From Armatimonadota bacterium (GTDB lineage Bacteria; Armatimonadota; Fimbriimonadia; Fimbriimonadales; Fimbriimonadaceae): DNA of 64,000 nt. The position numbers and the translations under genes were made by a program. Under the pieces are notes generated by a model. The model worked only from the letters and a program-made list of their open reading frames with translations. It was not told the DNA's origin and did not search any database. This document shows, piece by piece, positions 1,080 to 54,667 of this stretch (the first letter of the stretch is position 1; each line of letters opens with the position of its first letter). Location of the stretch: contig WGMG01000004.1 in assembly GCA_016125185.1 (NCBI GenBank), forward strand, positions 124,001 to 188,000, written 5' to 3'.

Positions 1080-1424
1080 CTACAATGCGTCCGCTTTCCC
1101 GTACAGCCGAGCGGGTGGCTCCGAGAAGTACTTGAACAGCGCCGGGCACAGCCACCCTTCCATTTCCAGTCCCGCGCAGTAGTACACGTTGCCGGACATC
1201 TCGGGACGCCGCCACTCGAACTCGTGTTGATACCCAGGGAACGGTTCGGCGGAAAACACCAGCCGGAAGCCCTTTTCGGCGTCAGGGATGTCCTTCGTCC
1301 AGGCGTCTAGAATCGTATCCGCTCCGCCCACGAATGGTTCTTGCGACAGACCCACTCGCTCGTCGTCGAAGACCCAAATACCGTACGCCTTGTACGGCGA
1401 AATCACAAACAGCGAGTTGCCCAT
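1080..1424 (-). CDS. Conserved hypothetical protein, DUF6717-like
   Basis: A 114-residue soluble protein with no signal peptide or membrane segment. The N-terminal pattern, an aromatic/hydrophobic strand followed by GIWVFDDERVGLSQEPFVGG, recalls the small DUF6717 family; this is from memory and moderate in strength. Function unknown. The ATG at 1422-1424 is supported by a TAAACT hexamer exactly six bases upstream on this strand, one of many such boxes in the window. It is divergent from the MOSC gene, with only 36 bases between the two starts. Confidence 0.7.
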   Translation of the reverse strand: MGNSLFVISPYKAYGIWVFDDERVGLSQEPFVGGADTILDAWTKDIPDAEKGFRLVFSAEPFPGYQHEFEWRRPEMSGNVYYCAGLEMEGWLCPALFKYFSEPPARLYGKADAL

Positions 1425-1430
1425 CGCTCA

Positions 1431-1436
1431 AGTTTA
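1431..1436 (-). promoter_or_regulatory. Candidate leaderless -10 box for the DUF6717-like gene
   Basis: TAAACT on the minus strand, six bases before the ATG at 1424. Fits the TAnnnT pattern shared by many starts here; there is no Shine-Dalgarno sequence between box and start. Confidence 0.5.
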
Positions 1437-1448
1437 CTGGGTGAGAGG

Positions 1449-1454
1449 TACGCT
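1449..1454 (+). promoter_or_regulatory. Candidate leaderless -10 box for the MOSC gene
   Basis: TACGCT, six bases before the GTG at 1461. Matches TAnnnT only at the three key positions, so it is weaker than most, but the spacing is exact and supports the GTG as the start. Confidence 0.35.
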
Positions 1455-1460
1455 CCAGAC

Positions 1461-2126
1461 GTGCTCGCGGGTGAGATTCTTTCGGTCCAGGTGGGCCTGC
1501 CCAAGGTCTACCAAAGCGCCTCAGACGATGGCGAGGATCGCACCTGGTCGTCCGGCATCTTCAAGCGCGCGGTCGAGGGTCCGGTCCGTCTCGGCGAGAC
1601 GAATTTGGACGGCGACGGGCAAGCCGATCTGGTCCATCACGGCGGTCCCGACCGGGCTCTGCTCCTCTATTCCGCCGCCCATTACCCCTTCTGGGAGGAT
1701 CGCTTCGGACACTCCCTCGAGTTCGGGAGCTTTGGCGAAAACCTCACAATCACAGACATGGACGAGCTTCAGGTTTGCCTCGGCGACCGCTTCACTATCG
1801 GTGAAGTGGAGATCGAGGTCAGCCAGCCGCGTCTGCCATGCTTCAAACTGGCGCGACGCCTGGACAAACCTGGTTTGAACCTGGAAGTGATGGAAAACCG
1901 ACGCGGCGGATGGTACACGCGCACGCTCAAGTCCGGCTCGATCCAGCGCGGCGATCGCTTGCAGCAGACGGCTCAGCCGAACCCGCAGTGGACCATCGAC
2001 CGGTGTTTTGCCACCTTCATCAGCGAGAAAAAGGACCGTGACGTGCTAGCCGAGCTCGCCGCCCTGCCGCAACTCAGCGAGCTATGGCGCACCAACCTCC
2101 AGCGCCGCCTCGCGCAACTCGGGTGA
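1461..2126 (+). CDS. MOSC domain protein, YiiM-like
   Basis: A 221-residue MOSC-domain protein. MOSC domains bind the molybdenum cofactor, and YiiM-type members reduce N-hydroxylated compounds such as 6-hydroxylaminopurine. The family hallmarks are visible: LVHHGGPDRALLLY, FGENLTITDMDE, and VSQPRLPCFKLARR, whose Cys is the expected cofactor ligand. A C-terminal extension ending in LWRTNLQRRLAQLG corresponds to the YiiM tail. The GTG at 1461 is chosen because the preceding frame overlaps the divergent gene and because a TACGCT box sits six bases upstream. Stop and the next start are three bases apart, so it is co-transcribed with the NTPase/membrane fusion. Confidence 0.85.
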   Translation: MLAGEILSVQVGLPKVYQSASDDGEDRTWSSGIFKRAVEGPVRLGETNLDGDGQADLVHHGGPDRALLLYSAAHYPFWEDRFGHSLEFGSFGENLTITDMDELQVCLGDRFTIGEVEIEVSQPRLPCFKLARRLDKPGLNLEVMENRRGGWYTRTLKSGSIQRGDRLQQTAQPNPQWTIDRCFATFISEKKDRDVLAELAALPQLSELWRTNLQRRLAQLG

Positions 2127-2129
2127 CCC

Positions 2130-3458
2130 ATGCTCCTCGTCGCGATCACCGGGCCGGTTGGAAGTGAGAAAACCACCACCCTGCGCGATTTCGCCGAGTG
2201 GACGACCGAGCAGGGTGCGCGAGTCGATGGCTTTGTTTCGTTGGCGGGCCGACGTCCGGTTGCCCACGAAGGGGCCGACGCCTACACGTGGCTGTGGGTA
2301 CGCACCAACGACCGCCAGCCTTTCGCCCATCGCACCCCCGACGGACCGTTTGAGGTCGATCCCGCCGCGCTTGCGAGCCTGGCCGAGTGGGCGGGCGCAT
2401 TGCCGCCCAAGCTGGATCTCGTGGTCATGGACGAGTTTGGCAAGTGGGAAGCGGCGGGCGAGGGCATCCTTTCGGCCTGGCCGGCGGTGGCGGCGGCCAA
2501 GCCGCGCATGGTGGTCGTCACCCTCCGCCAAGGCCTGCGGACCGAGATCGAAGCGAGGCTGGGGCGACGATTCGACCGCGTCCTCGATGCCGACGATGGC
2601 GACACGGCCGGCGAGCTTCGGAGCATGTACTCCGAGTTGAGGGATTGGGAGCGGGTCGGCGTGTTTGGCGCGACCTCGGGTGGGCTGGAGTGCTCGCTGG
2701 GTACTTATCTGCATGCCACCCGATTCCCGTTTACCGGCACCGTCATGGGCTCGCTTCAGGCGGCCACGCTGGCCCTCGCCTCGCGCGATTTGGGCCGCAA
2801 GGAGCTGGTCGTTTGGATATCGAGCATCGCTGCCGGGCTGAAGGCGTTCAGCCCCAGCAGTGCGCGGTTTACGCCTATGCTCGCCATCGCGGTGCAGGGC
2901 TTTTTGTTCATGACCGGAGCCGCGATTGGACGCTGGACCCGGCTCGGATTCGCCCTCGGCGCGTTCCTGGTCGGGCTGTGGGCGGCGCTGCAAGGACTGC
3001 TGATTCAGGGGCTGTTTTTCGGACGTCCGTTGGTGCGGGCCTACGGCTTTGCCGTGGCCTGGATTCGAACGCACCTGGGCCTCTCGCCGCCGAATATCTG
3101 GGTCGCGATGCTGATTCTGTGTCTGGTGAACGGCCTGCTGTCGGTGGGGCTGACGATGCTGATCGTGCGGCGCACGCCGCGCCTGCCGTCGCCGTCATCG
3201 CCGGGTTCGGCGGTCCGCCGCCAATGGCTGTTTTGGACTCCGCTCGTCGTAGTGTGTACGGTACTGTTCGCCGCGGGCGAGAACCCCACTAGCCTACTGT
3301 GGGTGGTGTTTCGGTACGCGGCGGTCTCGGCGATGCTGTTCGGATTGGCGCGAGCCCTGCGCGGGTTTGACCTCGAAGGGTTGCTGCATCGGCGCGGCCT
3401 CTGGGGTCCAGCGGTCGCTCTGCGGACGGCGAAGGACGAGCGTAAAGAAAGTGCTTAG
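2130..3458 (+). CDS. P-loop NTPase (THEP1/DUF2478-like) fused to an integral membrane domain
   Basis: A 442-residue two-part protein. Residues 1-170 look like a small P-loop nucleoside triphosphatase: a Walker A-like loop GPVGSEKTTT near residue 8, with Ser-Glu where Gly is usual before the Lys, and a Walker B-like VVMDEFGKWE near 98-107. Residues about 175-415 are a polytopic membrane domain. Its start (GATSGGLECSLGTYLH, then RFPFTGTVMG, then LKAFSPSSARFTPMLAIAVQG) resembles standalone membrane proteins that in Bacteroidetes sit beside THEP1-type NTPases. The fusion therefore joins two genes that are neighbours elsewhere. Substrate unknown; the MOSC partner hints at cofactor or metal handling, which is inference. 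Confidence 0.75.
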   Translation: MLLVAITGPVGSEKTTTLRDFAEWTTEQGARVDGFVSLAGRRPVAHEGADAYTWLWVRTNDRQPFAHRTPDGPFEVDPAALASLAEWAGALPPKLDLVVMDEFGKWEAAGEGILSAWPAVAAAKPRMVVVTLRQGLRTEIEARLGRRFDRVLDADDGDTAGELRSMYSELRDWERVGVFGATSGGLECSLGTYLHATRFPFTGTVMGSLQAATLALASRDLGRKELVVWISSIAAGLKAFSPSSARFTPMLAIAVQGFLFMTGAAIGRWTRLGFALGAFLVGLWAALQGLLIQGLFFGRPLVRAYGFAVAWIRTHLGLSPPNIWVAMLILCLVNGLLSVGLTMLIVRRTPRLPSPSSPGSAVRRQWLFWTPLVVVCTVLFAAGENPTSLLWVVFRYAAVSAMLFGLARALRGFDLEGLLHRRGLWGPAVALRTAKDERKESA

Positions 3459-3492
3459 TGCCAGGTGCCCTCGGCACTAAGCAATCAACCGG

Positions 3493-5970
3493 CTACCGAA
3501 CCTGCCACTCCAGAATCCCGCCCGAGAAGCCGGTTTGGAGTTGCACCTGCAAGCGCAGTCCGCTGACCGTCAGCGGCGCGAAGTTCACGCGGTTGAACAG
3601 GTCGCGGTCGCATCCCGGCTCGCCGTTGGGTTTGATCGGTACCCATTTGCCGTCCACCAGTCCCAAAATCGACCAGCTTTTCGGCACTCGGCACATGCCG
3701 TGACCCGAGTCGTCGAACCAATACACGTCCACACCCTTCACCGAGCGCGGCTTCTCGAAGTTGTACTGCACCCACTCGGTCGAGCCCTTGTGGTCCCACC
3801 ACGTGAAACGCGGGATGCCCTCGTCGCCGGACGATTTCGGCAGAATGCCATCGCACATGGCGATCACGTCGTCGCTCTCAAACACGTGCGAGGCGGTCGG
3901 GCCGTACGGAAGCGGCTTCGGCGGCTCGGCCCACGCCTTGCCATTTTTGGCCAGCCACGGGAACGCCGAGATGCGCAGTCGCGCCGCGCCCATCGGCACC
4001 AGCGTGATCTTCTGCACCGGGTCGGCGGAGACGGTCGGGCTCTGCTGAAGCTCGGACACCAAGCCGAAGCGATCGATGGTCCAAGAAGGCAGGATCGCGC
4101 CCTTGGCTTGAATCTGGATCGGCACCTCGTCGAGGGTAAATGGGAAGTTGGACGACGGCCACGGACGCTTGGCGACGGTCAACGACCGCTCGGGGTGCGC
4201 GGGGTCGATCGCCAGCGCATAGTTCCACGGAGTGGTGGGCGTGTAGGCGTAGGCGGGCCATGCCTCGGTATCCAGCGATTTCTGCCATTGCGAGTCGCCG
4301 AGGGCGGTCTTGGTGCTATCGAACCGCGTCACTTTCTCGCCGATCTTGAGCGAGAAGGTGAGGGGGCCATAGTCCACGCTCACGCTGTCGTGGTTGGCTT
4401 GCCACTGCTGGACGCTCAGCTTCATCGGCAGTTCCAGCGCGACCTTATCGCCGGTCTTCCAGGCTCGCTCGATGCGCATAAAGCCGGACTCCTTGCCCGC
4501 CAGCGACATTGCCTTGCCGTTCACGGTCAGCGTTGCGTTCTTGGTCCACGCGGGTAGGCGCAGGTACAACGGGAAGCGGTTCGATTTCTTGCCGGTGTCG
4601 ATGCTCAAGCGGATGCTCTGCTCGAACGGGTAGTGCGAGTCCTCCTTGATCGTGACCGAGCGGCCGTCGCCTGCCTTGGCCGTCACCGATGACGCGCTGT
4701 ACAGGGCGGCGGCGAGGCCGTTGTCGTTGGTGGCCATCCACAGATGCTCGCTGAAATAGGGCCAGCCCATGCCGTGGTTGTGCTGACAGCATCGGTGGCT
4801 CAGCGGGTTGTACATCGTCATCGGGCCGCCGTTTTGGTAGCCCGGCGCGTGGTTGAACTGGTCGGAGGTCGCCATGTTCGGGCTAGTGAGGTAGCGGAGC
4901 GATGTGCAGTCCGGCGTGAGGGCGGCGGGGTAGGTGTTGAAGGCGACGTTTTCGCAATGGTCGGCCCACATGGTGTCGCCCGAGATGCCGAGAAGCTCCT
5001 CGTCGGAGTACATCTGCTCGACCATGCCGCAGGTCTCGACCGCCTGGCGCGGGTCAGATTTGCCTGGTCGCGCGTTCTCGTCGGCGCCGTACATGCCGCC
5101 GGGAACGTTGCCGTACAGCCGCCGCAAGGTGGCGAAATTGTTGTAGGCGGCTTGGAGCGATTGGCTCTTCTTGCTCTGCTGGAAGAAGATTCCGGGCTCG
5201 TCGAAGCACTCGGCCACGTTGACGTTGTGCCAGTCCGGCAGACTGTCCTTCATCGACCAATCCATCGTTCGGCGGTGGTTCTTCTCGGCCAACTCCAGCA
5301 GTTTAGCGTCGCCGGTGAGGTCGTACAGCCAGTAGATGCTCGACAGGTTGTCGCCGCCGCGCGCGTGCTGCCAGTAGCCGGTTAGGAACTCCTTGTCGGG
5401 AATGGTGAGTTGGTAGTGGAAGTAGCTCGTCATCAGGTCGATCACGCGCTTGTCGTGGGTCGCCTCGTAGTAGGTGCGCAGGCACTCCAGCATGAGCATG
5501 TTGCCCCAGAAATCGCGCGAGCCGTCGTCCATGTGCTGGTTGGGGCCGAAGTCGCCGTCGGGTCGCTGACTGGCCAGCGCCGCCTCGATCCAGCCTTGCG
5601 CCTCCTTGATCATCGCTGGGTCCTTCAGTTGGTAAGCCAGACTGATGTAGCCCTTCAGCCAGTAGGGGACCTCTTCCCAGCCCGCGTGGCCCTTGCCGTC
5701 CTTGTCTAGCCAAGCGTTGCCATCGACCTTCAGCCAAGCGCTGATGTGGGGCAGATTGCCATTGAGCCCGGCGCGTTGGCGCTTTAGATACTCGCGAAGC
5801 CATCCGCTGGCCGTGACTGATCCGACCGGGAGCTTGATGAGCGGATTTCGGGCAAGAGGAGCGCGGTTGCCCACGTAATATGCGTTGGCCGATGCGACGG
5901 AAGGCGACTTGACGAAGGTCACCTGGTCACCGGCGGCAAGGACAATCGAGAGCGCGAGCTGACAAAGCAT
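3493..5970 (-). CDS. Secreted GH127-type glycoside hydrolase (beta-L-arabinofuranosidase-like)
   Basis: An 825-residue protein of the DUF1680/GH127 group, retaining hydrolases best known as beta-L-arabinofuranosidases. In the characterised enzyme a Zn-bound Cys is the nucleophile, held by Glu-x-Cys and a Cys-Cys pair. Here ETCGM supplies Glu312 and Cys314, HRCCQHNHG supplies Cys394 and Cys395, and Glu298 in GADENARPG sits where the acid/base is expected. An (alpha/alpha)6 barrel fills residues about 50-430, beta-sandwich regions follow, and the end (from about residue 690) looks like a discoidin-type module. The leader is short and lacks Arg/Lys (MLCQLALSIVLAAG), yet export is likely. It stands alone between repeat-rich gaps; sugar substrate not proven. 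Confidence 0.85.
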   Translation of the reverse strand: MLCQLALSIVLAAGDQVTFVKSPSVASANAYYVGNRAPLARNPLIKLPVGSVTASGWLREYLKRQRAGLNGNLPHISAWLKVDGNAWLDKDGKGHAGWEEVPYWLKGYISLAYQLKDPAMIKEAQGWIEAALASQRPDGDFGPNQHMDDGSRDFWGNMLMLECLRTYYEATHDKRVIDLMTSYFHYQLTIPDKEFLTGYWQHARGGDNLSSIYWLYDLTGDAKLLELAEKNHRRTMDWSMKDSLPDWHNVNVAECFDEPGIFFQQSKKSQSLQAAYNNFATLRRLYGNVPGGMYGADENARPGKSDPRQAVETCGMVEQMYSDEELLGISGDTMWADHCENVAFNTYPAALTPDCTSLRYLTSPNMATSDQFNHAPGYQNGGPMTMYNPLSHRCCQHNHGMGWPYFSEHLWMATNDNGLAAALYSASSVTAKAGDGRSVTIKEDSHYPFEQSIRLSIDTGKKSNRFPLYLRLPAWTKNATLTVNGKAMSLAGKESGFMRIERAWKTGDKVALELPMKLSVQQWQANHDSVSVDYGPLTFSLKIGEKVTRFDSTKTALGDSQWQKSLDTEAWPAYAYTPTTPWNYALAIDPAHPERSLTVAKRPWPSSNFPFTLDEVPIQIQAKGAILPSWTIDRFGLVSELQQSPTVSADPVQKITLVPMGAARLRISAFPWLAKNGKAWAEPPKPLPYGPTASHVFESDDVIAMCDGILPKSSGDEGIPRFTWWDHKGSTEWVQYNFEKPRSVKGVDVYWFDDSGHGMCRVPKSWSILGLVDGKWVPIKPNGEPGCDRDLFNRVNFAPLTVSGLRLQVQLQTGFSGGILEWQVR

Positions 5971-6554
5971 GGAGTAAGGTCAAGGTACCCGAAGTGGGGT
6001 AGAGTTGGAGGTCTGCTGAAGCCTGAAGCCTATTCTCTACCTCACCTCTTCGCGAGCTCCTACGTCGCGCGAAGGTCCTCTCCTGGTAGGAGAGGAAATG
6101 GGTCCTTCCGAAATTCCTGGTGGCATATAACCGAAGGCCATGCGGGATGGGAAAACCACGGTCCTTCAGACCTTCTTATATAGCATCGATACCCAGCCCG
6201 CAAGGGCTGGGCTAACTTGGATCGCTCCGTTGGAGCGCAAACGAGAGTAGCCGTTTAGCAGTTGTGAGCGTTTCGTGGGTGGGTTATTGAGCGGAAAAGC
6301 CCCGAATCGCTACCTCGGCGCCGAGACTCAGTGCAAACTCTCGAATCAGTGAGGAGAGGTTCTGAGGTTCAAAAGTCTTCAAAAGACTGGATGACGTCTG
6401 AGGAAAACGCCTTGACCTTCCGACGAGACGCTCACATCCCTTGGTCCTCGCTGGATAGGATTGGTGGGCGCTGGTAAAGACGTCTGCTCGCCCGCCGAAG
6501 AAGGGCGAAGCTGGGATTTACCAGTGGTTCCCATCTGGCCATCATTTGTAGGGG
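5971..6554. repeat. Intergenic gap with two dispersed repeat copies
   Basis: 584 bases with no supported gene. It contains the second copy of the 629-713 module (6155-6236), near copies of the two small boxes of that first gap (about 6079-6146), and at 6262-6394 a diverged element that recurs at 32350-32481; the best conserved core is AGAGGTTCTGAGGTTCAAAA at 6355, part of a 27-base identity. The remainder shows nothing recognisable. Confidence 0.7.
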
Positions 6555-6935
6555 TCAAGCCGTCTCGCGCCGAACCACTAGATCGATCGATTGAGCCAGC
6601 ACAATGGCTAAGGTCATGGCGGTGGCGTAAGCAAAGAAGGCTCTTGCAAAAGGACTTACCGCAAGACAGGCGAAGACGATCAGCACCGCCGCACCCACCG
6701 ATAACCAGGCGACGACCTTCACCGTCTTCCGAAGTTTTTCTGGGCCGTAGGGCTCCTTTGGCTTACCCTTGATCCATGCTTCGACCTGCTTATTGAGATA
6801 GATGCAGAGCCCAGCAAACAAGCCTAATGCAATGGCGGCGTTGAGGCGATCATTGAAGACTAGAAAGCCAATTAGGGCCAGGGCGCCCGGCATCATATCC
6901 AGGAGATAGGATAGGATTTTGGCCAAAGTCCTCAT
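6555..6935 (-). CDS. Small hypothetical membrane protein, four predicted TM segments
   Basis: 126 residues with hydrophobic segments at about 14-28, 33-48, 72-92 and 100-118, and a basic loop rich in Lys and Pro (KGKPKEPYGPEKLRK) between the second and third. No family recognised. The protein is highly hydrophobic and has a clean ATG, which supports a real inner-membrane protein. It stands alone, pointing the same way as der but 231 bases downstream of it. Confidence 0.65.
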   Translation of the reverse strand: MRTLAKILSYLLDMMPGALALIGFLVFNDRLNAAIALGLFAGLCIYLNKQVEAWIKGKPKEPYGPEKLRKTVKVVAWLSVGAAVLIVFACLAVSPFARAFFAYATAMTLAIVLAQSIDLVVRRETA

Positions 6936-7166
6936 CGATCACATTGAGATTACACGATTGGGGGGAGGGGCAAGGCTGTTGTCGGTTTGACATCGTTTCG
7001 AACGCTTTCGCCTTTCCACCGGCTCGCTACGCTTTCCCTTCACATAAATCCTGCCTTCGTGGCAGGATTCATTGCGGACCCTTCCCCCTTGGAGTAGCGT
7101 GGTCGACTCGCTTAATTGGAATGTTAACCGCACTTGTGGCTAGAAGCTGGAAGCTAAAGCCAACCC

Positions 7167-8519
7167 CTACTTCTCATCCCGATCGTGGCTACTTCGCGCG
7201 AACAGCCGAATCGGCGTGCCTTGAAGCGGGAAGAGTTGCCGGATGCGGTTCAGCAGGTACCGGTGGTAGCTAAAGTGCATGATGTCTGGGTCGTTGCAGA
7301 ACAGCACGAACGTCGGCGGCGCGGTCGAGACCTGCGTCGCGTAGTACACCTTGAACTGCCGCCCCTTCGTCACGTGCGGGCGGTCGAAGATCGCGTCTTG
7401 GATCAGGCGGTTGAGCTGACCCGTCGAGATGCGGAAGTTGTAGCTCTCCAAGGCGCTGAGCACCGAGTCCAGCGCAGGCTCGAGTCCGGCGTGCTCCTTG
7501 GCCGATGTGAACACGATCGGCGCGTACGAAAGCTCGGGCATCTGGTCGCGAAAGATCTTGATGAAGTCCTTTTTGAGTTGGGAATTCTTCTTGGGTTGGC
7601 CGTTCGGCGGCTCCTTGACGTCCCACTTGTTGACCACCACCACGCACGATTTGCCTGCGTCGTGGGCCAGCTTCATCACGCGTTTGTCGCCGTCGGTCAG
7701 GCCCTCTTCGCCGTCCACCACCGCCATGGCGCACTCGCACCGGTCGATAGCCTTCTGCGCGCGGTTGACCATGTAGTACTCGACCGAGCCCTGAATCTTG
7801 CCCCGGCGGCGGATACCCGCCGTATCGATCAGGCGGAAGGTCTCGCCTTCGTAGTCGAGTTCGGTGTCGATCGCGTCGCGCGTGGTGCCGGCAATGTTCG
7901 AGACGATCATGCGCTGTTCGCCGGTAAAGGCGTTGACCAGCGAGCTTTTGCCCACGTTCGGTCGTCCGACGATGGCGAGGCGAATCTCCTCTTTCTCGTC
8001 CGGGTTCTCGGTGACTGCGGGAAGCATAGCCACGATCTCGTCCAGCAGGTCGGCCACGCCGCGTCCGTGCAGGCTGGAGACCGGGTAAACCTGCCCCAGA
8101 CCGAGGCCATAGAACTCGCCCGCAAAGTCTTCTCGGTCGAAGTTGTCGGCCTTGTTGGGCACGACTAGGATCGGGGTTTTGATGCCGCGAAGCTGGTTGG
8201 CAAGCTCGCGGTCGTCGGGGTGGACGCCGGAAGTGATATCGGCGAGAAAGACGATAGCATCGGCCTCGGAGAGCGCAACATTGGCTTGAACGCGAATCTG
8301 CTCGGCGAGAGGGTCGGATTCCTGGAAAACGATACCGCCGGTATCGACGACGTTGAACCGTTTACCGTTCCAGGTGACTTCGGCGTACAGGCGGTCGCGG
8401 GTGATTCCGGGAGTGTCTTCGACGACGGCGACGCGTTTTCCGACCAGGCGATTAAAAAACGTCGATTTGCCGACGTTGGGTCGTCCGACAATGACGACGG
8501 TTGGAAGAGATTTTTTCAT
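7167..8519 (-). CDS. der: Ribosome biogenesis GTPase Der
   Basis: A 450-residue double GTPase that assists 50S subunit assembly. Two complete G domains are visible: GRPNVGKSTFF, DTPGIT and NKAD in the first (residues 9-165), GRPNVGKSSLV, DTAGIRRRGKI and NKWD in the second (about 182-350). A KH-like domain ends the protein (YYATQVSTAPPTFVLFCNDP). Length is typical for the family. It appears monocistronic. Confidence 0.97.
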   Translation of the reverse strand: MKKSLPTVVIVGRPNVGKSTFFNRLVGKRVAVVEDTPGITRDRLYAEVTWNGKRFNVVDTGGIVFQESDPLAEQIRVQANVALSEADAIVFLADITSGVHPDDRELANQLRGIKTPILVVPNKADNFDREDFAGEFYGLGLGQVYPVSSLHGRGVADLLDEIVAMLPAVTENPDEKEEIRLAIVGRPNVGKSSLVNAFTGEQRMIVSNIAGTTRDAIDTELDYEGETFRLIDTAGIRRRGKIQGSVEYYMVNRAQKAIDRCECAMAVVDGEEGLTDGDKRVMKLAHDAGKSCVVVVNKWDVKEPPNGQPKKNSQLKKDFIKIFRDQMPELSYAPIVFTSAKEHAGLEPALDSVLSALESYNFRISTGQLNRLIQDAIFDRPHVTKGRQFKVYYATQVSTAPPTFVLFCNDPDIMHFSYHRYLLNRIRQLFPLQGTPIRLFARSSHDRDEK

Positions 8520-8560: not shown

Positions 8561-8566
8561 TACCTT
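8561..8566 (+). promoter_or_regulatory. Candidate leaderless -10 box for the PagL-like gene
   Basis: TACCTT, seven bases before the ATG at 8574, with no Shine-Dalgarno sequence between them. Confidence 0.4.
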
Positions 8567-8573
8567 AACTCTA

Positions 8574-9171: not shown

Positions 9172-9177
9172 TACAAT
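9172..9177 (+). promoter_or_regulatory. Candidate leaderless -10 box for the DUF1801-like gene
   Basis: TACAAT within TGATACAAT, an extended -10 form, five bases before the ATG at 9183. One of the stronger examples in the window. Confidence 0.5.
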
Positions 9178-11988: not shown

Positions 11989-12495
11989 ATGCAGTACATG
12001 AGTCCTCAATTGACCGCCGAATTTGAGTATCTCACCACCCGCCTCGAGGGCATGATCGAGAAGGTCTCGAACCTGCCCACCGACGCCCAAGAGTCCCCCG
12101 TCGGGAAGAGTTTTTCCCCCGTGCAGGCCATCGAGCACATGTACGTTACCGAGAAAAGCTATACGGACTACGCCAAAAAGACCGACCAGGCCAAGCTGAA
12201 GGGGCGCAAAGGCAAGCCCAATTTCATCTACAACTTCGTCCTGAAAGGCATGAACCGTCCGGTTGGCTCCAACCTGCCCACACCAGGCATGTTCCAGCCC
12301 AAAGACGGCCTTTCGCTGGAGGAATCCAGCCAGAAATGGCGCGACGAACGCGCAAGCCTGAAGGAGTATCTGAAGAAATTCAACGACAACGACGCCTGTC
12401 TGAAGAACCCGCTGATGGGCTGGTTCAGCCCGCGCGACCTGTATGTGCTGATGGAACGCCACCAGGACTATCACGACGCACGTCTGCCGAACTAA
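11989..12495 (+). CDS. DinB-like metal-binding four-helix protein
   Basis: 168 residues with the layout of the DinB_2 superfamily: helical throughout, FSPVQAIEHMYVTEKSY in the first part and LMERHQDYHDARL at the end, giving the His residues that bind a divalent metal in this fold. Members act as thiol-dependent transferases or have unknown roles. An ATG at 11998 is an alternative start. Base composition returns to the normal high G+C here, so this gene marks the right edge of the A+T-rich operon. Confidence 0.7.
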   Translation: MQYMSPQLTAEFEYLTTRLEGMIEKVSNLPTDAQESPVGKSFSPVQAIEHMYVTEKSYTDYAKKTDQAKLKGRKGKPNFIYNFVLKGMNRPVGSNLPTPGMFQPKDGLSLEESSQKWRDERASLKEYLKKFNDNDACLKNPLMGWFSPRDLYVLMERHQDYHDARLPN

Positions 12496-12498
12496 ACT
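12493..12498 (+). promoter_or_regulatory. Candidate leaderless -10 box for the beta-helix gene
   Basis: TAAACT, six bases before the ATG at 12505; the string CTAGGGACAT around the start also occurs at the start of the gene at 18260. Confidence 0.5.
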
Positions 12499-16659: not shown

Positions 16660-16665
16660 CATAAT
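16660..16665 (+). promoter_or_regulatory. Candidate leaderless -10 box for the APC permease gene
   Basis: CATAAT, five of six matches to TATAAT, seven bases before the GTG at 16673. Confidence 0.4.
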
Positions 16666-18245: not shown

Positions 18246-18251
18246 TACACT
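18246..18251 (+). promoter_or_regulatory. Candidate leaderless -10 box for the DUF6614-like operon
   Basis: TACACT, eight bases before the ATG at 18260. Confidence 0.4.
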
Positions 18252-23014: not shown

Positions 23015-23116
23015 GGTTGTTTCCTAAGGGGGCAAACACCATGGGCGGCGTTGCCTCTGGATCAGAATGCGAATGCGACGCATTTCGTTCCACCCATCCT
23101 CTGCCAAACTATTGCT

Positions 23117-33852: not shown

Positions 33853-33858
33853 ACTTTA
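33853..33858 (-). promoter_or_regulatory. Candidate leaderless -10 box for paralog 1
   Basis: TAAAGT on the minus strand, six bases before the ATG at 33846; it overlaps the stop region of paralog 2. Confidence 0.4.
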
Positions 33859-39249: not shown

Positions 39250-39255
39250 ATTATC
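39250..39255 (-). promoter_or_regulatory. Candidate leaderless -10 box for the HIT gene
   Basis: GATAAT on the minus strand, five of six matches to TATAAT, six bases before the ATG at 39243. Confidence 0.4.
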
Positions 39256-39331: not shown

Positions 39332-39907
39332 CTATGACAGATCGACCGACTTTGGACAGCCCTGGGCGACCCATCGGTCATAGTGCTTGAACGTGGAAAG
39401 TTCGGTTCGAATGTTTCGAAATTGGACGAGGCAGAAATAAAAGCAAAGGGCAAACATGGAGGAGTACGTGTCGTTAGGGATGGCTCGTTTCGCGCCCTGT
39501 GAAATCAGATGGATTAACCAATAGCCAAGAAGTGGCGTCACGGTGAAAAATACGATGACGGACAGCCAAAATTTCGACTGTAGAAGTTTCCGGTACCGAG
39601 CATCGTTGGGATCGTCAGATTTGGGTCGAAGCAACGCTGGCAAGCATCCCGCAAGGTATGGCATCGCAAAGACACGGGGGCGGTTAGCCTCAATCCAAAG
39701 ATCTTCCGCTTGTTGGGCGTTCTCCGGCTCCATGAAGGTTTGCCGAAGTTTTGCGGTTTGCCAAATCGCATAGACGAGTACGACGGGCAAAAGAACTCCC
39801 AAGTGACTTCGGATGCCGACAAAGAGAAGAACGATAATTCCCAAAATCGACAACACTGCAATAGCTTCAAATCCCCGCGAATAAGCTGACTGCCACGACT
39901 TCGACAC
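39332..39907 (-). CDS. Membrane protein, tandem paralog a
   Basis: 191 residues with about four TM helices (AVLSILGIIVLLFVGI, LGVLLPVVLVYAIW, WLSVIVFFTVTPLLGYWLI and one near 150-165). It begins SKSWQSAYSRGFEAI, almost the same as the upstream neighbour (SGSWQSAYRWGFVAF), and the two share a middle region (FW..., RPRVFAMPYLAG against SPRFFLSAYFMGP). Unknown family. GTG start shares its G with the TAG stop of the neighbour, and a perfect TATAAT sits eight bases upstream. Confidence 0.65.
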   Translation of the reverse strand: MSKSWQSAYSRGFEAIAVLSILGIIVLLFVGIRSHLGVLLPVVLVYAIWQTAKLRQTFMEPENAQQAEDLWIEANRPRVFAMPYLAGCLPALLRPKSDDPNDARYRKLLQSKFWLSVIVFFTVTPLLGYWLIHLISQGAKRAIPNDTYSSMFALCFYFCLVQFRNIRTELSTFKHYDRWVAQGCPKSVDLS

Positions 39908-40530
39908 TACCTACCATTATAGGGCATTAAGGATTTACTTGGGTTCGAAGGAGCGTGGGCAACCCATTGAAACCCATTTGTCAAAATACGCCATCCTTGA
40001 AAGCTCTCGTTTTGTTCGGAAGTATTTCGAAATCCACATGTACGCAGCAACCACAAAAAAATGGAAAGTGAGTCCCAATGGTACGGGCGATGGATGGCAG
40101 AATTCAGTAACACGTACATGGCCGTGACGCCGAAAGGGAACAAGGCGGACACGATGCTTGTCACCGTCATGTTGGCAAGAAGAGCTGCACGATACTTTTC
40201 GTGGGAGGAGTCACTGAACGAGGGAGTCACTAATTGGGGCTTTGCGGCCACCGAGATCAATCGTGGCCCCATGAAGTAAGCCGATAGAAAGAACCGAGGG
40301 CTGCCGTGATCGGCCCAGAACTTCTCAAGTCTCTCGTCGAACTCGCAGTCCTGTCCGATCCGTTTTCGGAGCAGATACGCCCTGGGTACCGAGACCAACA
40401 TGAATATCCCAATCAGGATGGAAAGGAGCGACCCGTGTGCGAGGATGACAAAGAACGAAACGGCCCCCAGGATCATGGTTGCGAACGCGACAAAACCCCA
40501 TCGATAAGCCGATTGCCAAGACCCGGACAC
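39907..40530 (-). CDS. Membrane protein, tandem paralog b
   Basis: 207 residues, four TM helices, N-terminus SGSWQSAYRWGFVAFATMIL, tandem duplicate of the downstream gene. The C-terminal 40 residues (SFQGWRILTNGFQWVAHAPS) differ from the paralog. GTG start with a perfect TATAAT seven bases upstream. It follows folE2 on the same strand by 23 bases but seems to have its own promoter. Confidence 0.65.
   Translation of the reverse strand: MSGSWQSAYRWGFVAFATMILGAVSFFVILAHGSLLSILIGIFMLVSVPRAYLLRKRIGQDCEFDERLEKFWADHGSPRFFLSAYFMGPRLISVAAKPQLVTPSFSDSSHEKYRAALLANMTVTSIVSALFPFGVTAMYVLLNSAIHRPYHWDSLSIFLWLLRTCGFRNTSEQNESFQGWRILTNGFQWVAHAPSNPSKSLMPYNGR
39916..39921 (-). promoter_or_regulatory. TATAAT -10 box, leaderless spacing, paralog a
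   Basis: Perfect TATAAT on the minus strand, eight bases before the GTG at 39907 and inside the 3' end of paralog b. Confidence 0.55.
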
Positions 40531-40537
40531 GTCCTCT

Positions 40538-40543
40538 ATTATA
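40538..40543 (-). promoter_or_regulatory. TATAAT -10 box, leaderless spacing, paralog b
   Basis: Perfect TATAAT on the minus strand, seven bases before the GTG at 40530. The surrounding GCCCTATAAT is the same as upstream of paralog a, so the promoter was duplicated with the gene. Confidence 0.6.
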
Positions 40544-44768: not shown

Positions 44769-44774
44769 TAATCT
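44769..44774 (+). promoter_or_regulatory. Candidate leaderless -10 box for the M42 peptidase
   Basis: TAATCT, six bases before the ATG at 44781. Confidence 0.45.
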
Positions 44775-46769: not shown

Positions 46770-46775
46770 CATAAT
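46770..46775 (+). promoter_or_regulatory. Candidate leaderless -10 box for rimO
   Basis: CATAAT, six bases before the ATG at 46782. An AAAGG overlaps the spacer and could act as a weak ribosome site if transcription starts earlier. Confidence 0.35.
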
Positions 46776-48170: not shown

Positions 48171-48206
48171 GCGACCTAACTCTGCTACATTACTAGAGAA
48201 TGATTA

Positions 48207-49466
48207 ATGCCAAATAGCAAGCCATCCCTATCTTTGTTTACTGGTGCCGGAGGACTGGACCTCGGCTTAGAGTCTGCAGGCTTTGCCGTTTCGTTGTGTA
48301 TCGAACTAGATACTGATGCGCGAGCAACAATCTCGAAGAACATAAGTGACTGGAAACTTAGTGAGCCGGGAGATATATTAGTTCTTGAACCTCAAGAGCT
48401 TGCTTTGCAATCAGGACTGGGCCCTGGTGATATTGCGCTTATTTCCGCTGGTCCCCCTTGTCAACCCTTCTCCAAGTCATCGTATTGGGCTCATGAGCCT
48501 CGAAAAATGAAGGACGAAAGGGCGTCAACAATACGTCGAACGCTTGAAGTTATCGACTATTTTCAACCGGATGCAATCCTTATCGAGAACGTTCGAGGCT
48601 TAACTTATACAAATAAGAATGAAGGCTACTTAGAGATTCAGCGAGGCCTACGGCTAATTAATGAAAAGCATAAGACGGCCTATGAACTTCAATGTCTCAC
48701 TTTGGATGCTGCAAAATTTGGCGTTCCTCAGCACCGCGAACGAAGCATTCTCGTGGCGCATAGACTTGGGAAGCTGCTCTCGGTGCCTGAAACTCACCAA
48801 ACAAATAGAATAGATCCAGTAAATGATTTGCCGTTCTGCCCTAACACATGGGATGCGATAGGGCACATCGCTCCTACAAATTTGGCTGAATTGGAACTGA
48901 CTGGGAAATGGGCAGACTTAATCCCCAGTATCCCGGAAGGTTCAAATTATCTTTATCACACGGAAAGAGGCGATGGCGTCGAATTGTTTGGACATAGGAC
49001 AAAGTTCTGGTCATTTCTACTAAAGCTTGCAAAGGCTCGTCAATCATGGACAATTCAAGCTTCACCTGGTCCGGCAACCGGCCCATTTCATTGGGATAAT
49101 CGGAGGCTGTCAGTTGGCGAAGCAGCCGCACTACAGACTTTCCCAGATGGTTTCCTTTTTGAAGGCAATTATAGAAGTCAACTGAAGCAAATCGGCAATG
49201 CTGTTCCTCCAGGTTTGGGATTCGTCCTGGGATGTGCGCTCCTCGATCAATGGTTCGATTCCCCAAAAGTACAGGCCAATAAATTCATACCCCCGTTAAA
49301 GAGTTCGATACCTGAGCCTGAGGTTGTAAGAGCTGTGCCTGGTAAGTACTTACAGAATGTTGGCCCAAAGGCGGCTCATCCAGGACATGGCTTGGGCCCA
49401 GGCGCAACAAGAAGAATTGTCAATTCTCAGAAAACTAGAAAGACGTCAAATAATCCCGCTGCTTGA
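48207..49466 (+). CDS. DNA (cytosine-5-)-methyltransferase
   Basis: 419 residues. Motif I SLFTGAGGLDLGLE, motif IV AGPPCQPFS with catalytic Cys85, motif VI ENVRG, motif VIII QHRER and motif X QIGNAVPP are all present in order, so it should be active. The target-recognition region between VIII and IX is about 130 residues; the sequence it reads cannot be told. The gene is clearly A+T-richer than rimO before it, and it converges on the nuclease-like gene with a 32-base tail overlap. Together with that gene and the ParB-like gene it looks like a restriction-modification or defence locus. Confidence 0.93.
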   Translation: MPNSKPSLSLFTGAGGLDLGLESAGFAVSLCIELDTDARATISKNISDWKLSEPGDILVLEPQELALQSGLGPGDIALISAGPPCQPFSKSSYWAHEPRKMKDERASTIRRTLEVIDYFQPDAILIENVRGLTYTNKNEGYLEIQRGLRLINEKHKTAYELQCLTLDAAKFGVPQHRERSILVAHRLGKLLSVPETHQTNRIDPVNDLPFCPNTWDAIGHIAPTNLAELELTGKWADLIPSIPEGSNYLYHTERGDGVELFGHRTKFWSFLLKLAKARQSWTIQASPGPATGPFHWDNRRLSVGEAAALQTFPDGFLFEGNYRSQLKQIGNAVPPGLGFVLGCALLDQWFDSPKVQANKFIPPLKSSIPEPEVVRAVPGKYLQNVGPKAAHPGHGLGPGATRRIVNSQKTRKTSNNPAA

Positions 49467-50370
49467 GTCTGACTTCAGAGACCCTACTTGCGTTCCAGTT
49501 CTTTAAGGATGAATTCAGCTCGTTTGGCAGTTTTATGTCTTTAAGAAGGAATTCTAATCGTAAACGATCCAGAATCATGCCGGCTCGCTTAGAGTCTGTA
49601 TGCCAGCTAGTACGATCGCTGTCGTAGATTCCGGGAATCGCCATGGCGCGGGTTGGCTTTGTTAATAATGCGAGACGTGTCTGCCACGCACCTTCTTCGA
49701 AAGCAAGGTCACCTAATTTGTCCTTCCAATTTCTACCAATTGCACACTGAGTCAGAGTCACTAATTGTCCAGGCATATTATCTGGGAAGGGCTTCCAAGC
49801 TATAACATCGAGCCCATCATCCTTTTCATGTCCATCCACAAAGTCCTCAACATTCCCCAGCATCTCGGCAGTCTCAGAAGAGACATATTCAACAGCTGCT
49901 CTAAAGGGGACTGGAACTGGAGCACGTCTCGGCGCGCCAAATCGAAACGAGCGCCCCCCAATATAGCTCGCCATTGCGTGTGCAACAAGCTCCTCAAATA
50001 GCTCCGATGGCGTGCTTGCGGCTCCATTTTTATAGGAGAGGTCGTCGTATGTCCAAGCTAGGGAAAGGAGTACTAGGAAGTCATGGACATGATGTGTACT
50101 TTCTTGGGTGCTGTTGGTAGAAATTCCAGTTTTGCCTATCCTGAGCGGGTACACGTCTCCAACAATGGATTGACGTCTTACCAGAGTTCGTTTAAGATCA
50201 CTTAGAAGTGTTTCGCTTTCTAAATCTGCAGATGATAGATTCTGGCTATCAATTTCCTCAAGGAAAATTGAATACGGAAGGAAACCTTCAAGTCCTTGAT
50301 CAATGATTAAGCTGGCTTCAACCCAAGTCGCCATCGCGTTTGAACGGGTATCGCTTGGAGCCTGTAACAT
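49435..50370 (-). CDS. Putative restriction endonuclease-like protein (PD-(D/E)XK-type signature)
   Basis: 311 residues, no signal peptide. A Glu on a helix (SELFEELVAHAMAS, Glu126/127), then DDGLDVIAWKPFPDN (Asp188) and LVTLTQCAIGRNWKDK resemble the E...(G)xD...Q/ExK core of PD-(D/E)XK nucleases, in a variant where Gln208 stands at the first position of the final pair. Similar GxDxxxW...QCxxGxxW proteins occur in defence neighbourhoods (recalled, not searched). The ATG at 50370 shares its A with the stop of the ParB-like gene (TAATG), so translation is coupled. It would supply the cutting activity opposite the methyltransferase; untested. Confidence 0.6.
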   Translation of the reverse strand: MLQAPSDTRSNAMATWVEASLIIDQGLEGFLPYSIFLEEIDSQNLSSADLESETLLSDLKRTLVRRQSIVGDVYPLRIGKTGISTNSTQESTHHVHDFLVLLSLAWTYDDLSYKNGAASTPSELFEELVAHAMASYIGGRSFRFGAPRRAPVPVPFRAAVEYVSSETAEMLGNVEDFVDGHEKDDGLDVIAWKPFPDNMPGQLVTLTQCAIGRNWKDKLGDLAFEEGAWQTRLALLTKPTRAMAIPGIYDSDRTSWHTDSKRAGMILDRLRLEFLLKDIKLPNELNSSLKNWNASRVSEVRLKQRDYLTSF

Positions 50371-51455
50371 TAGAATAAGTCTTTTTCTGGAAATGCCCCG
50401 ATGATACGCTTTATTGTGTCATTGCAGTCTTTAACGAGCTTCCTTATTTCTAGCGAGTCTACATGTCGGTGAATTTTTCCATTGGCTTGCTCCAAAAGTA
50501 CGCTTGCTTTTCTGAGGTTCTCCTGAACTTCACTCTCTTCGCCACCAGCATATAAGTAGGCTTCGTCAATATCACCTCGTGTTCGTAGGCGTTCAAGCGA
50601 GATCGGATTGCGAAGAATCTCCGAGAGCTTATGCAGGTCGCGTGATTCTCGAAGAACGGGTAAAGATCCTTCGGTACCAAACATCATGTCAAGCAATTCC
50701 CTAGTTTGCTCAGATCGCTCCGGCGGAATCGGTTCTTGTTGTTCCTGGACTGGCTTGTTTGGGTCGACCCCGAAATGCTCCCTTATCCCTGTTTCGCTCA
50801 GAGCCCGAAAAAGGACGCTGAAGTCCTCCTCAACCTTTTCCGTATCTATTCCAAAAGTATTCTTTGCCTGTTCAACCATTCTGTAGGCAATGTAATTGTC
50901 TCTAACTTGCGGAGTTTTGCTGTTAATCAGTTTTGCAACTGTCTTCCAGTCTTTTTGCTGTTCAACATGCTGACTTATGAACCGTGCCTTGGCCAGCGGA
51001 TCCCACTTCTTGACTCCAGTAATGTGTCGAAAGCCAAGAAATGGTACGACTTCCTCCCGAGTTTGGTAAGTAATTACGGGTACTTGGGTGAGGTTCTGCT
51101 TGTTCTCCGCAGCTAGTTCTTCCCACTTTCGTGCTTGGGGAACCTTGAGTTCCACAGCCTTTTGAGGATGAAGAAGTAGCTTCAGTGCGGCAAGCCTTCG
51201 GTTGCCTTCAAGAACCACACATTCATTGTCTTGCGGGATTACGACCAAAGGCTCCTCTGAAAAATAGCCGTGGGCTACAAAGGACTCGCCTAGCTCTAGT
51301 AAGTCAAAGCCCCTTGCCAGTTCTTTTAGCAAGATGTCTTGGGAGGGATTGGGTCCAATATCGAGCCTGGGATTCTTTGGATCAAGTAGCAGTTCATCAA
51401 CAGTTTTGGCTTCTGGAAATTTGAACTCGAGCTGCGGCTGATGATGAGCGCTCAT
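50370..51455 (-). CDS. ParB/Srx-fold N-terminal domain protein
   Basis: 361 residues. Residues about 18-110 have the ParB-like fold: LLLDPKNPRLD, then a helix, EEPLVVIPQDNECVVLEGN and the signature EGNRRLAALKLL at 83-94. In ParB this fold binds and hydrolyses CTP; in other proteins it is a nuclease or regulator. The remainder is helical (QRKDW-type HTH region near 175-195, DWKTVAKLINSKTPQVRDN) and may bind DNA. The ATG at 51455 has TATGTT six bases upstream; a TTG start 90 bases earlier would lie against the flagellin stop and adds an unstructured Ser/Thr/Asn tract. It is coupled to the nuclease-like gene. Confidence 0.75.
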   Translation of the reverse strand: MSAHHQPQLEFKFPEAKTVDELLLDPKNPRLDIGPNPSQDILLKELARGFDLLELGESFVAHGYFSEEPLVVIPQDNECVVLEGNRRLAALKLLLHPQKAVELKVPQARKWEELAAENKQNLTQVPVITYQTREEVVPFLGFRHITGVKKWDPLAKARFISQHVEQQKDWKTVAKLINSKTPQVRDNYIAYRMVEQAKNTFGIDTEKVEEDFSVLFRALSETGIREHFGVDPNKPVQEQQEPIPPERSEQTRELLDMMFGTEGSLPVLRESRDLHKLSEILRNPISLERLRTRGDIDEAYLYAGGEESEVQENLRKASVLLEQANGKIHRHVDSLEIRKLVKDCNDTIKRIIGAFPEKDLF

Positions 51456-51461
51456 ATCACT

Positions 51462-51467
51462 AACATA
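51462..51467 (-). promoter_or_regulatory. Candidate leaderless -10 box for the ParB-like gene
   Basis: TATGTT on the minus strand, six bases before the ATG at 51455. Supports that start and a promoter separate from flagellin. Confidence 0.45.
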
Positions 51468-51550
51468 ATTTTGCTCAAGATTTGTTGAGTTTTGCGGCTT
51501 TTGAGTTTCTTTTGTGGTGCGAGAGTAACACTTCCTCGACTTCAAGCCAA

Positions 51551-52981
51551 CTACCCCTTCAACAGGTTCAGAACTGTCTGCGGCATCTGGTTCGCTTGCG
51601 CGAGGATGGCCACACCGGCCTGCTGGAGCACTTGGAACGTGGTGTACGTCGTCATTTCCGAAGCCATGTCCACATCGCGGATGGTGCTCTCCGACGCCGT
51701 CATGTTCTCCTTCGCCGCCGCCAAAGTGCGGTTATTCGAATCCAAAATGTACGAGCTGAACTGACCGATCTGGGCGCGAACCGCCGAAACCTGGTTGATG
51801 GCTCGGTCGATGACCTGCATCGAATTATTCAGGCTGGATGCGTTCGTCACGTCGATCGAATCGACGCTCATATTCGTCACCACGTCGGCGCCAAGTTGGT
51901 TGGCGGCCATGTTTGGCAACGCCAACTGAGAAGTTTGGCCAGACCCGGCTCCGAGCTGGAAGGTGGCGCTTCCCGGCGTCACCTGGCCGATGGTCATCGG
52001 GTAGCCCGCCGAAAGATTGCCGGCCGCCGTTAGGCGAACCATGTTGCCGTCGGAGTCGAAAAGGCTGAGGCCGTCGGTTCCGGCTCGTCCGCCGGTGAAC
52101 AGGGCCGAACCCATCGCCCCCATTGAGATCGAAGCGACCGGATTGGTGCCCGTAACCGTGGTGGGAGGTCCCGAACTAACGACGCCACCGGCGTCGGCAA
52201 AGCTGAGCGAGGCGTTTTGGCCGTAGGCGAGGGTCGAAAAAGTCAGTTGGTTGGTCGTGTTATTCCAGCTAGCGGTCACGCCGGTCGATGCGGACGCAGA
52301 GTTGACCGAGTTGGCGACCGAGGCACCAGTGGTTCCGGCCACAAACGTAAACGTGGTGCCGTTGATGCTGAACGAGCCGGGATTGAGGACGACGCCACCG
52401 GTGAGAGCAGACGAAGTCAGCGACCCCTGGGTGCCCGGCGTGACCGAATTGATGGTCATCAGAGCCTGAGCGGTGACCGGCGAACCCTTGAAGGTGCCAG
52501 CAAGCGAGATGCCGCCGACCTCGTTGGCCGCGCTGACCTGCGCCTGAATACCGGACGAGCCGTCGAGTAGGCGCTTGGAAGCAAACTGCGAGGTCTGGGC
52601 GATGCGGGTGATGCTCGCCGCGATACTGGAAAGCTGGTCTTGGTTGGCGCGAAGCTGGGTAGCGGAGAGGGTGGCGGTGTTGCCGGACGCGACCACAAGG
52701 GCCTTGGCGTCCGAAAGTAGCTGGTTGATTTCGGCGAGCGACGACTCGGCGGTCTTGGCAAAGTTGATGGCGTTCTGGTTGTTCTGAACCGCCGCGTCGA
52801 TGCCGTTGATCTGCGAGCGCAGGTTCTCGGAGGAGATGAGGCCCGAAGGATCGTCGGCCGCATGTGTGATGCGGAGGCCCGTGCTCAGCCGGTTGATGGA
52901 CGCGTTCAACGAATTCGAATTTACGTTGAGATTCGACTGTGCGACCAAAGCGGCGATGTTGGTATTGATTCGAAAAGACAT
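51551..52981 (-). CDS. fliC: Flagellin
   Basis: 476 residues. The conserved D0/D1 ends are complete: FRINTNIAALVAQSNLNVNS and LSTGLRITHAADDPSGLISS at the start, and ENMTASESTIRDVDMASEMT with QQAGVAILAQANQMPQTVLN at the end. The middle (about 150-370) is a variable Thr/Ser/Gly-rich D2/D3 region. It forms the flagellar filament after export by the flagellar secretion system. No other flagellar gene is in the window. It is divergent from the ABC permease. A good Shine-Dalgarno (AAGGG) precedes the ATG; no convincing sigma28 promoter was found. Confidence 0.96.
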   Translation of the reverse strand: MSFRINTNIAALVAQSNLNVNSNSLNASINRLSTGLRITHAADDPSGLISSENLRSQINGIDAAVQNNQNAINFAKTAESSLAEINQLLSDAKALVVASGNTATLSATQLRANQDQLSSIAASITRIAQTSQFASKRLLDGSSGIQAQVSAANEVGGISLAGTFKGSPVTAQALMTINSVTPGTQGSLTSSALTGGVVLNPGSFSINGTTFTFVAGTTGASVANSVNSASASTGVTASWNNTTNQLTFSTLAYGQNASLSFADAGGVVSSGPPTTVTGTNPVASISMGAMGSALFTGGRAGTDGLSLFDSDGNMVRLTAAGNLSAGYPMTIGQVTPGSATFQLGAGSGQTSQLALPNMAANQLGADVVTNMSVDSIDVTNASSLNNSMQVIDRAINQVSAVRAQIGQFSSYILDSNNRTLAAAKENMTASESTIRDVDMASEMTTYTTFQVLQQAGVAILAQANQMPQTVLNLLKG

Positions 52982-53101
52982 GTCACCCTTGCTTTGCGTG
53001 CCGTCGCTTCCATGTTTCGGCCGGTTTTTAACCTAGCAAAGCTACCAAAATTCATTGTCGGGCGAAACCCGATTTTATGAAGCCCGATTCGCGAAGAACG
53101 G

Positions 53102-53107
53102 TAAATT
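53102..53107 (+). promoter_or_regulatory. Candidate leaderless -10 box for the envelope operon
   Basis: TAAATT, six bases before the ATG at 53114, which heads a likely seven-gene operon. Confidence 0.45.
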
Positions 53108-53113
53108 ACCTCT

Positions 53114-54667
53114 ATGAGTTTGGTCAGCAAGGTCGGGAGGAAGCGTCCGCGAGCGCGAATCGCCCTGGCCGTGCTGTACGCCATCCTAACTTTTGGTGCG
53201 CTGACCACGCTGTACCCTTTCCTTTTGATGGTCAGCACCGGGCTGAAGGGGCCGACCGACCAAAGCGACAATGCGATCGTGCCGAAATACTTCGGCGACG
53301 ACAACGAACTGCTGGCCAAATACCTGGATGACAAGTACGCCGGCAACGACGGCGTGATCGCCAGTACGCGCTCCGGTCCAGATTCCAACGAGGTCGCGAA
53401 GTTCGACCAATTCTTGATGACTTTGCCCTTGGATATGTGGACGTCGGGCTTTCGGCTGGCGTCGAACCAGGTGACTAGCCGTCTGACCATGCGGTACCAG
53501 GAGTGGCTCCGAACCCGGTTCAAGACCGTCGATGACCTGAACAAGGCGTACATCGAAGAAAACATCGCCTTTCAAACCGTGATGCCACCCTCCGAACTGT
53601 TGGAGCGAGCCAGTTGGAAGCCGACGCCGGGGCAGAAGTACACCGACTGGCTGGAGTTCAAAGCGACGCTACCGGCGGAGTACCGAATTCCGATTCGGCG
53701 CACCCGGCTGTGGCAAGAGTTCCTGCGGGTCAAATTCCGCAACCGCATTGACGACGTGCCGGACTTCTTCAAGGTCCATAACGAAAAGAAGTTCGAGGAA
53801 CTGACCCTCGATTATCCGGAAGCAACCACGGTCGGAAACATCCAAGAAAACCTGATGCTTGAGTTCGAGCGCACCATGCCTGACCGTTATAAGCACGGAA
53901 CAGCCGAGGCGCTATGGGCCAAGGAGTCGCGGGAGGCGATGCCGATCGAGGCAAGCGAGCGGGCGTACGTCCGCGCCCACGAAGGCGAGATCAAGCGCAA
54001 TTTTGCCACCCGCAACTTCCGCTACGTGCTGGACTACGTGCTCCTGCATGGTACGGCCGTCCTCAACACCGCCATCTTCTGCGGGCTGGCGGTGCTCACT
54101 CAGCTTTTGGTCAACCCGTTAGCGGCCTATGCCCTATCGCGCTATCCAATCCGTTCGTCGGGCCGAATCCTGCTGTTCCTGCTCGCGACCATGGCGTTCC
54201 CTGCCGAGGTGGCCATGATCCCCGCGTTTCTGCTCCTCAAGAGCCTGCATCTGCTGAACACCTTCGCCGCGCTTATCCTGCCTTCGGCGGCCAGCGGGTA
54301 CATGATCTTTCTGCTCAAGGGCTTCTTCGATTCGCTTCCACAAGAGCTTTTCGAAGCCGGACAACTCGACGGCGCGCCGGAAACGACCCTCTTGACGCGC
54401 ATTGCCCTACCCCTCACGCGTCCGGTGCTGGGCTACCTGGCCCTCATGGCGTTCATGGCGTCGTACTCCACGTTCATGTTCGCGTTTCTGGTGGTGCAGG
54501 ATCAGAAGATGTGGACCCTGATGGTGTGGGTGTATCAGCTTCAAACCACCGCGCCGAAGGCGGTTGTGATGGCGGCCCTAGCGCTCGCGGCGCTGCCAAC
54601 ACTAGTGGTGTTCTTGTTCGCTCAGCGGGTGATTATGCGCGGCATCGTCCTTCCTGGGGAACGTTAG
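53114..54667 (+). CDS. MalG-type ABC transporter permease with a large extracytoplasmic insertion
   Basis: 517 residues against about 280 for a usual MalG-type sugar permease. TM1 is at about 17-40 (ALAVLYAILTFGALTTLYPF), followed by roughly 260 hydrophilic residues, then the normal five-helix core (about 305-510). The ATPase-coupling loop FEAGQLDGAPETTLLTRIAL and PLTRPVLGYLALMAFMASYS identify the family. The insertion, rich in Arg, Glu and Trp, has no recognised domain; it could contact a substrate-binding protein, as the MalF P2 loop does. No partner permease, ATPase or binding protein is adjacent. It heads the envelope operon. Confidence 0.85.
   Translation: MSLVSKVGRKRPRARIALAVLYAILTFGALTTLYPFLLMVSTGLKGPTDQSDNAIVPKYFGDDNELLAKYLDDKYAGNDGVIASTRSGPDSNEVAKFDQFLMTLPLDMWTSGFRLASNQVTSRLTMRYQEWLRTRFKTVDDLNKAYIEENIAFQTVMPPSELLERASWKPTPGQKYTDWLEFKATLPAEYRIPIRRTRLWQEFLRVKFRNRIDDVPDFFKVHNEKKFEELTLDYPEATTVGNIQENLMLEFERTMPDRYKHGTAEALWAKESREAMPIEASERAYVRAHEGEIKRNFATRNFRYVLDYVLLHGTAVLNTAIFCGLAVLTQLLVNPLAAYALSRYPIRSSGRILLFLLATMAFPAEVAMIPAFLLLKSLHLLNTFAALILPSAASGYMIFLLKGFFDSLPQELFEAGQLDGAPETTLLTRIALPLTRPVLGYLALMAFMASYSTFMFAFLVVQDQKMWTLMVWVYQLQTTAPKAVVMAALALAALPTLVVFLFAQRVIMRGIVLPGER

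Follow-up and report, generated by a model that had tools for sequence, protein, structure and literature searches.

Boxes ahead of start codons in the window

Many genes in a 64,000-nt stretch of an Armatimonadota genome (family Fimbriimonadaceae; contig WGMG01000004.1, positions 124,001 to 188,000; hereafter the window) carry a TAnnnT hexamer only a few bases before the start codon. This raises the question whether the hexamers are -10 boxes of promoters from which transcription starts at the start codon itself, giving leaderless mRNAs, or whether they have another origin. In a preliminary description of the window twelve such boxes and four near matches were reported. On re-inspection, all twelve were present at the claimed places and spacings (bases between box and start codon), as were the four near matches. 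They are listed below together with P, the probability of the TA class, where available.

1431..1436, minus strand: TAAACT, 6 bases before ATG 1424 of a DUF6717 protein; P(TA) = 1.00
1449..1454, plus strand: TACGCT, 6 bases before GTG 1461 of a MOSC domain protein; P = 0.97
8561..8566, plus strand: TACCTT, 7 bases before ATG 8574 of a PagL-like lipid A deacylase; P = 0.86
9172..9177, plus strand: TACAAT, 5 bases before ATG 9183 of a protein with a weak DUF1801 match; P = 0.77
12493..12498, plus strand: TAAACT, 6 bases before ATG 12505 of a beta-helix/PA14 protein; P = 0.99
16660..16665, plus strand: near match CATAAT, 7 bases before GTG 16673 of an amino acid permease; P = 0.93
18246..18251, plus strand: TACACT, 8 bases before ATG 18260 of a DUF6614 protein; P = 0.96
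23105..23110, plus strand: near match CAAACT, 6 bases before ATG 23117 of the PriA helicase; P = 0.96
33853..33858, minus strand: TAAAGT, 6 bases before ATG 33846; P = 0.51
39250..39255, minus strand: near match GATAAT, 6 bases before ATG 39243; P = 0.89
39916..39921, minus strand: TATAAT, 8 bases before GTG 39907, GGTAGG in between; gene missed by the codon-usage finder
40538..40543, minus strand: TATAAT, 7 bases before GTG 40530, AGAGGA in between; gene missed by the codon-usage finder
44769..44774, plus strand: TAATCT, 6 bases before ATG 44781 of an M42 aminopeptidase; P = 0.98
46770..46775, plus strand: near match CATAAT, 6 bases before ATG 46782 of RimO; P = 0.77
51462..51467, minus strand: TATGTT, 6 bases before ATG 51455 of a protein matching PADLOC PD-Lambda-5_A models
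53102..53107, plus strand: TAAATT, 6 bases before ATG 53114 of an ABC transporter permease; P = 0.98

Twelve TAnnnT boxes at about 45 starts, compared with a background of 4%, correspond to a binomial p of ~1e-7 for starts that had been hand-picked in the preliminary description. The boxes at 39907 and 40530 exist as described but are weaker examples, with the SD-like sequences given above between box and GTG. The two genes behind them (39332-40530, in tandem) are without Pfam matches, are distant paralogs of each other (27% identity, E = 2e-12) and both carry CCCTATAAT 7-8 bases ahead of the GTG start. In the divergent pair 1424 (minus) and 1461 (plus), which has one box for each gene, the start codons are 36 bp apart (1425-1460), so that any -35 element would fall in or beside the start of the opposite gene.

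The part of the window between 48 and 52 kb is AT-richer (0.49 GC). A C5 cytosine methylase is encoded there (48207-49466), beside which lie a 311-aa ORF without assignment (49435-50370) and the PD-Lambda-5_A-matching protein (50370-51455). The segment 48207-51455 resembles a restriction-modification or defence island, adjoining a flagellin gene (51551-52981). An Acido-Lenti-1 RNA (RF01687) was found at 669-714 (39.5 bits, above the gathering score).

Spacing of the box across the genome

The genome comprises 4.52 Mb in 13 contigs, and a sample of 1.23 Mb (the window and 59 further stretches) was analyzed. In order to avoid hand-picked starts, 945 genes were called from codon usage alone, without any upstream information. 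TAnnnT occurred at a spacing of 6 bases in 69 of them (7.3%), at 7 in 36 and at 8 in 28; the counts then tailed off up to about 12 bases, beyond which the frequency was ~1% per upstream position. For comparison, only 0.4% was obtained ahead of 14,819 internal in-frame start codons (0.1-0.6% per position). The genome-wide count which the preliminary description had called for thus yielded a sharp peak at 6 bases, and not a profile lacking a peak at 5-8. Its statement that the boxes lie 5-8 bases before the start holds insofar as they cluster there; the mode, however, is exactly 6, and 5-8 is the neighbourhood of this mode. With respect to the two background rates, the rough estimate of one or two chance boxes per 40 starts was about right.

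For the codon-usage starts, the model-free excess at spacings 5-8 amounted to ~11% of the genes, which is a lower bound. The plain pattern TANNNT-N6-RTG, counted in this genome without gene calls, was lost in the background and the sharper GTANAMT was required: GTANAMT-N6-ATG was found 72 times in the whole genome versus 17 expected occurrences, again without gene calls.

Motif, Shine-Dalgarno class and -35 region

The upstream regions of the 945 genes were fitted with a two-class mixture model started from random initial matrices, the best solution being reported here. The model separated a GGTAnAnT class, with the box at spacing 6 in 36% of its members, at 7 in 18% and at 8 in 11%, from an AGGAG class. 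With the matrices fixed, the TA class comprised 36% of the genes at any spacing and ~24% at 5-8, fractions which are estimates, as the model picks the start as well. Its weight dropped to 0.6% with shuffled upstream sequence and to 0% with the regions upstream of internal starts. About a quarter of the genes appear to have a putative promoter -10 box directly ahead of the start codon.

Alignment of 264 boxes revealed G at -14 and -13 (56-57%). No -35 element was detected in these boxes, the information content being at most 0.05 bits at every position upstream of -14 and no TTGAC peak being visible. A canonical sigma70 promoter with its -35 hexamer 16-18 bp upstream of the -10 was rejected on the same 264 boxes. 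The 16S tail GGATCACCTCCTT retains the anti-SD CCTCC, so that Shine-Dalgarno-led and leaderless modes can coexist.

Gene context

Divergent starts had a TA-class probability (spacings 5-8) of 0.32; the values were 0.28-0.33 for starts behind short gaps, 0.20-0.21 behind longer co-directional gaps and as low as 0.04 at overlapping co-directional genes. Judged from gene order, the box follows the starts of transcription units as a promoter would, with enrichment at operon-leading and divergent starts. The probability of a Shine-Dalgarno sequence took the opposite course, with 0.34 for divergent starts and 0.69 for overlapping co-directional genes, which bears out the earlier remark that genes inside operons have one more often.

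These data bear on the possibility that TAnnnT is a translation-initiation signal, namely AT-rich, unstructured mRNA by the start codon, while transcription starts further upstream. Positions -4 to -12 are indeed A-rich in this genome and box genes do occur at some short co-directional gaps. A signal for the ribosome would, however, be expected equally inside operons, where the probability at overlaps is just 0.04. Furthermore, two G at -14/-13 combined with a rigid TA...T are unlike generic AT-richness, and the spacing peaks sharply at 6, which is also the case in Thermus. We consequently regard a translation signal as very improbable.

Start codons and conservation in orthologs

At spacing 6 the start codons were 77 ATG and 35 GTG, and none of the 112 was TTG (p = 7e-6 versus the share in the SD class), which fits the leaderless RTG rule. 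GTG was enriched at this spacing (p = 0.005) and more frequent than at spacings 7-10; position -1 favoured C (p = 2e-4). The usual bacterial initiator is a purine at +1 after a pyrimidine.

Although the upstream sequences have diverged among the counted orthologs of the M42 aminopeptidase (44781), 12 of 17 have a box 6-9 bases ahead of the start (11 TAnnnT and one CATAAT). These carriers include nearly the whole genus. The five orthologs without a box all lie outside the genus and at least two of them show AGGAG. A RimO search assigned the window to the Armatimonadota, class Fimbriimonadia and family Fimbriimonadaceae, with Fimbriimonas and Armatimonadetes MAGs as the best named matches (up to 88% protein identity). 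Of 29 RimO orthologs taken from across the class, 19 have TAnnnT or [CG]ATAAT next to the start, and TAnnnT was kept in 9 of 14 orthologs of the permease at 53114. At control spacings the counts for M42, RimO and the permease were 0, 1 and 4 (20-24 bases) and 1, 1 and 1 (30-34 bases). Beyond the genus, orthologs are often without the box, and some carry AGGAG upstream instead.

The same observations concern a second alternative, according to which the boxes belong to ordinary promoters with leaders and the starts were called too far upstream, the true start lying downstream behind a Shine-Dalgarno sequence. Gene starts are called with some noise in a draft genome, and a further start may lie downstream in some of the box genes; yet in orthologs whose alignment begins at residue 1 the box stands at the start, and miscalled starts would yield neither a peak at exactly 6 nor the absence of TTG nor the C at -1. 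We rate this alternative as improbable as the translation signal.

Taxonomic range within the Armatimonadota

Using the same finder, the spacing peak was seen in 100 kb samples of four genomes of the same order (G005, G071, G017 and G020). With the same pipeline, the spacing-6 peak was present in Thermus pTT27, and no peak was obtained for E. coli or for most other Armatimonadota samples. The relative G007 gave no clear peak in its 100 kb sample and an enriched whole-genome count (53 versus 9.4). For the range counts, GTANAMT-N6-ATG was compared with the N15-24 average in the whole genomes of 151 Armatimonadota without gene calls. The family of the present genome (33 genomes) gave 1338 occurrences versus 325 expected (4.1-fold). 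Among the other families the enrichment was 5.4-fold in f16, 3.4-fold in f23 and 2.9-fold in f3, the remaining ones ranging between 0.5- and 2.1-fold.

Chance or base composition, by which AT-rich promoters and intergenic DNA would make TAnnnT common upstream of genes, as the rise of its background to ~1% per upstream position might suggest, is already refuted at this sample size by the spacing-specific peak, the weight of 0.6% on shuffled upstream sequence, the lack of a signal, under the same pipeline, in E. coli and in several further Armatimonadota and the 4.1-fold enrichment in the family.

The RimO tree unites f16 and f23 (99/97) in a group separate from Fimbriimonadia; this single-gene tree fits two gains or several losses. 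It is conceivable, with slightly less than even odds, that two separate clades (Fimbriimonadia; f16 and f23) express many of their genes in leaderless form, as a major mode, from a GG-extended and -35-independent -10, the majority of the families placed between them in the tree relying on Shine-Dalgarno sequences. The evidence for the GG extension comes from Fimbriimonadia, f16 being represented by eight box genes only. If this were true, leaderless expression would have been gained or lost repeatedly within one phylum.

The share of SD-like starts was 22-30% in the Fimbriimonadia samples and 37-59% in most other Armatimonadota samples, with G031 (f16) as an exception at 20%. Loss of bS21 was considered as a correlate and ruled out, the gene being found in this genome and in every family member searched. 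No bS21 (PF01165) match was obtained in 34 of the 151 genomes (f9, f21, f22, f28, f30 and others), which belong mostly to families without the leaderless signal.

Proposed mode of expression

As the best explanation, held with a probability of about 0.9, we propose that the boxes serve as -10 elements in promoters of the housekeeping type and that RNA polymerase starts on or near the start codon, giving leaderless mRNA. The preliminary description had arrived at the same reading, which is supported by the peak at 6 and by gene context, start-codon bias, kept boxes and the contrast between Thermus and E. coli. The latter four, which are not expected from an artefact of translation or base composition, point to a transcription start at the start codon.

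The promoter consensus would be GGTAnAnT with no detectable -35. The -10 hexamer would occupy -12 to -7 and be followed by six bases, so that at the commonest spacing +1 would fall on the A of ATG or the G of GTG; polymerase would start on this base or a few bases from it, and with spacings of 7-12 the mRNA would be leaderless or have a leader of 1-6 nt. The resulting mRNA would be devoid of a Shine-Dalgarno sequence, and ribosomes would recognise the 5'-terminal AUG or GUG with initiator tRNA. Operon-internal genes use Shine-Dalgarno sequences instead. For the box genes, motif, spacing, gene context, conservation, start-codon bias and taxonomic range are shown by the sequence data; the transcription start at the start codon and the translation of the leaderless mRNA we infer.

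This mode would add a phylum to the few in which leaderless expression is apparently a main mode. Close relatives with and without the signal would provide material for asking what lets a ribosome tolerate leaderless mRNA. For calling gene starts in these genomes, which are mostly MAGs, a leaderless model seems advisable, and promoters may be readable straight from the sequence.

Comparison with known systems

According to Table 1 of PMC10783764, SD genes make up 25% in Fimbriimonadia and 70% in Chthonomonadetes. The samples analyzed here follow the same trend, and leaderless promoters would explain part of the low SD content, a link to this lineage that the accessible part of that paper does not draw. 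The preliminary description knew of no account of leaderless expression in this lineage, and a necessarily non-exhaustive literature search agrees: no description for Armatimonadota was found in the literature searched, with the proviso that a domain-wide motif survey (PMC12340547) may list the phylum in its supplements, and no paper naming both Fimbriimonas and Shine-Dalgarno came up. The best reading is that a known leaderless mechanism extends to a little-studied lineage for which no prior report was found.

In Deinococcus-Thermus, TA-led leaderless genes account for ~30-46% of the genes (Zheng et al. 2011, PMC3160421; Zhong et al. 2025, PMC12340547). As there, TANNNT stands here directly ahead of the ORF with strict spacing, separate from an RBS class. 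The present case differs in the phylum, in the GG ahead of the box with A favoured at its fourth and A/C at its fifth position, and in being predicted from sequence.

In mycobacteria and other Actinobacteria about a quarter of the transcripts are leaderless (Shell et al. 2015, PMC4633059; PMC3898074), and in mycobacteria a start codon at the 5' end has to be ATG or GTG to function (PMC4633059). Those results come from mapped 5' ends and reporters, ours from DNA sequence. Here, too, about a quarter of the genes appear to be concerned, TTG is absent at spacing 6, and orthologs tend to stay leaderless.
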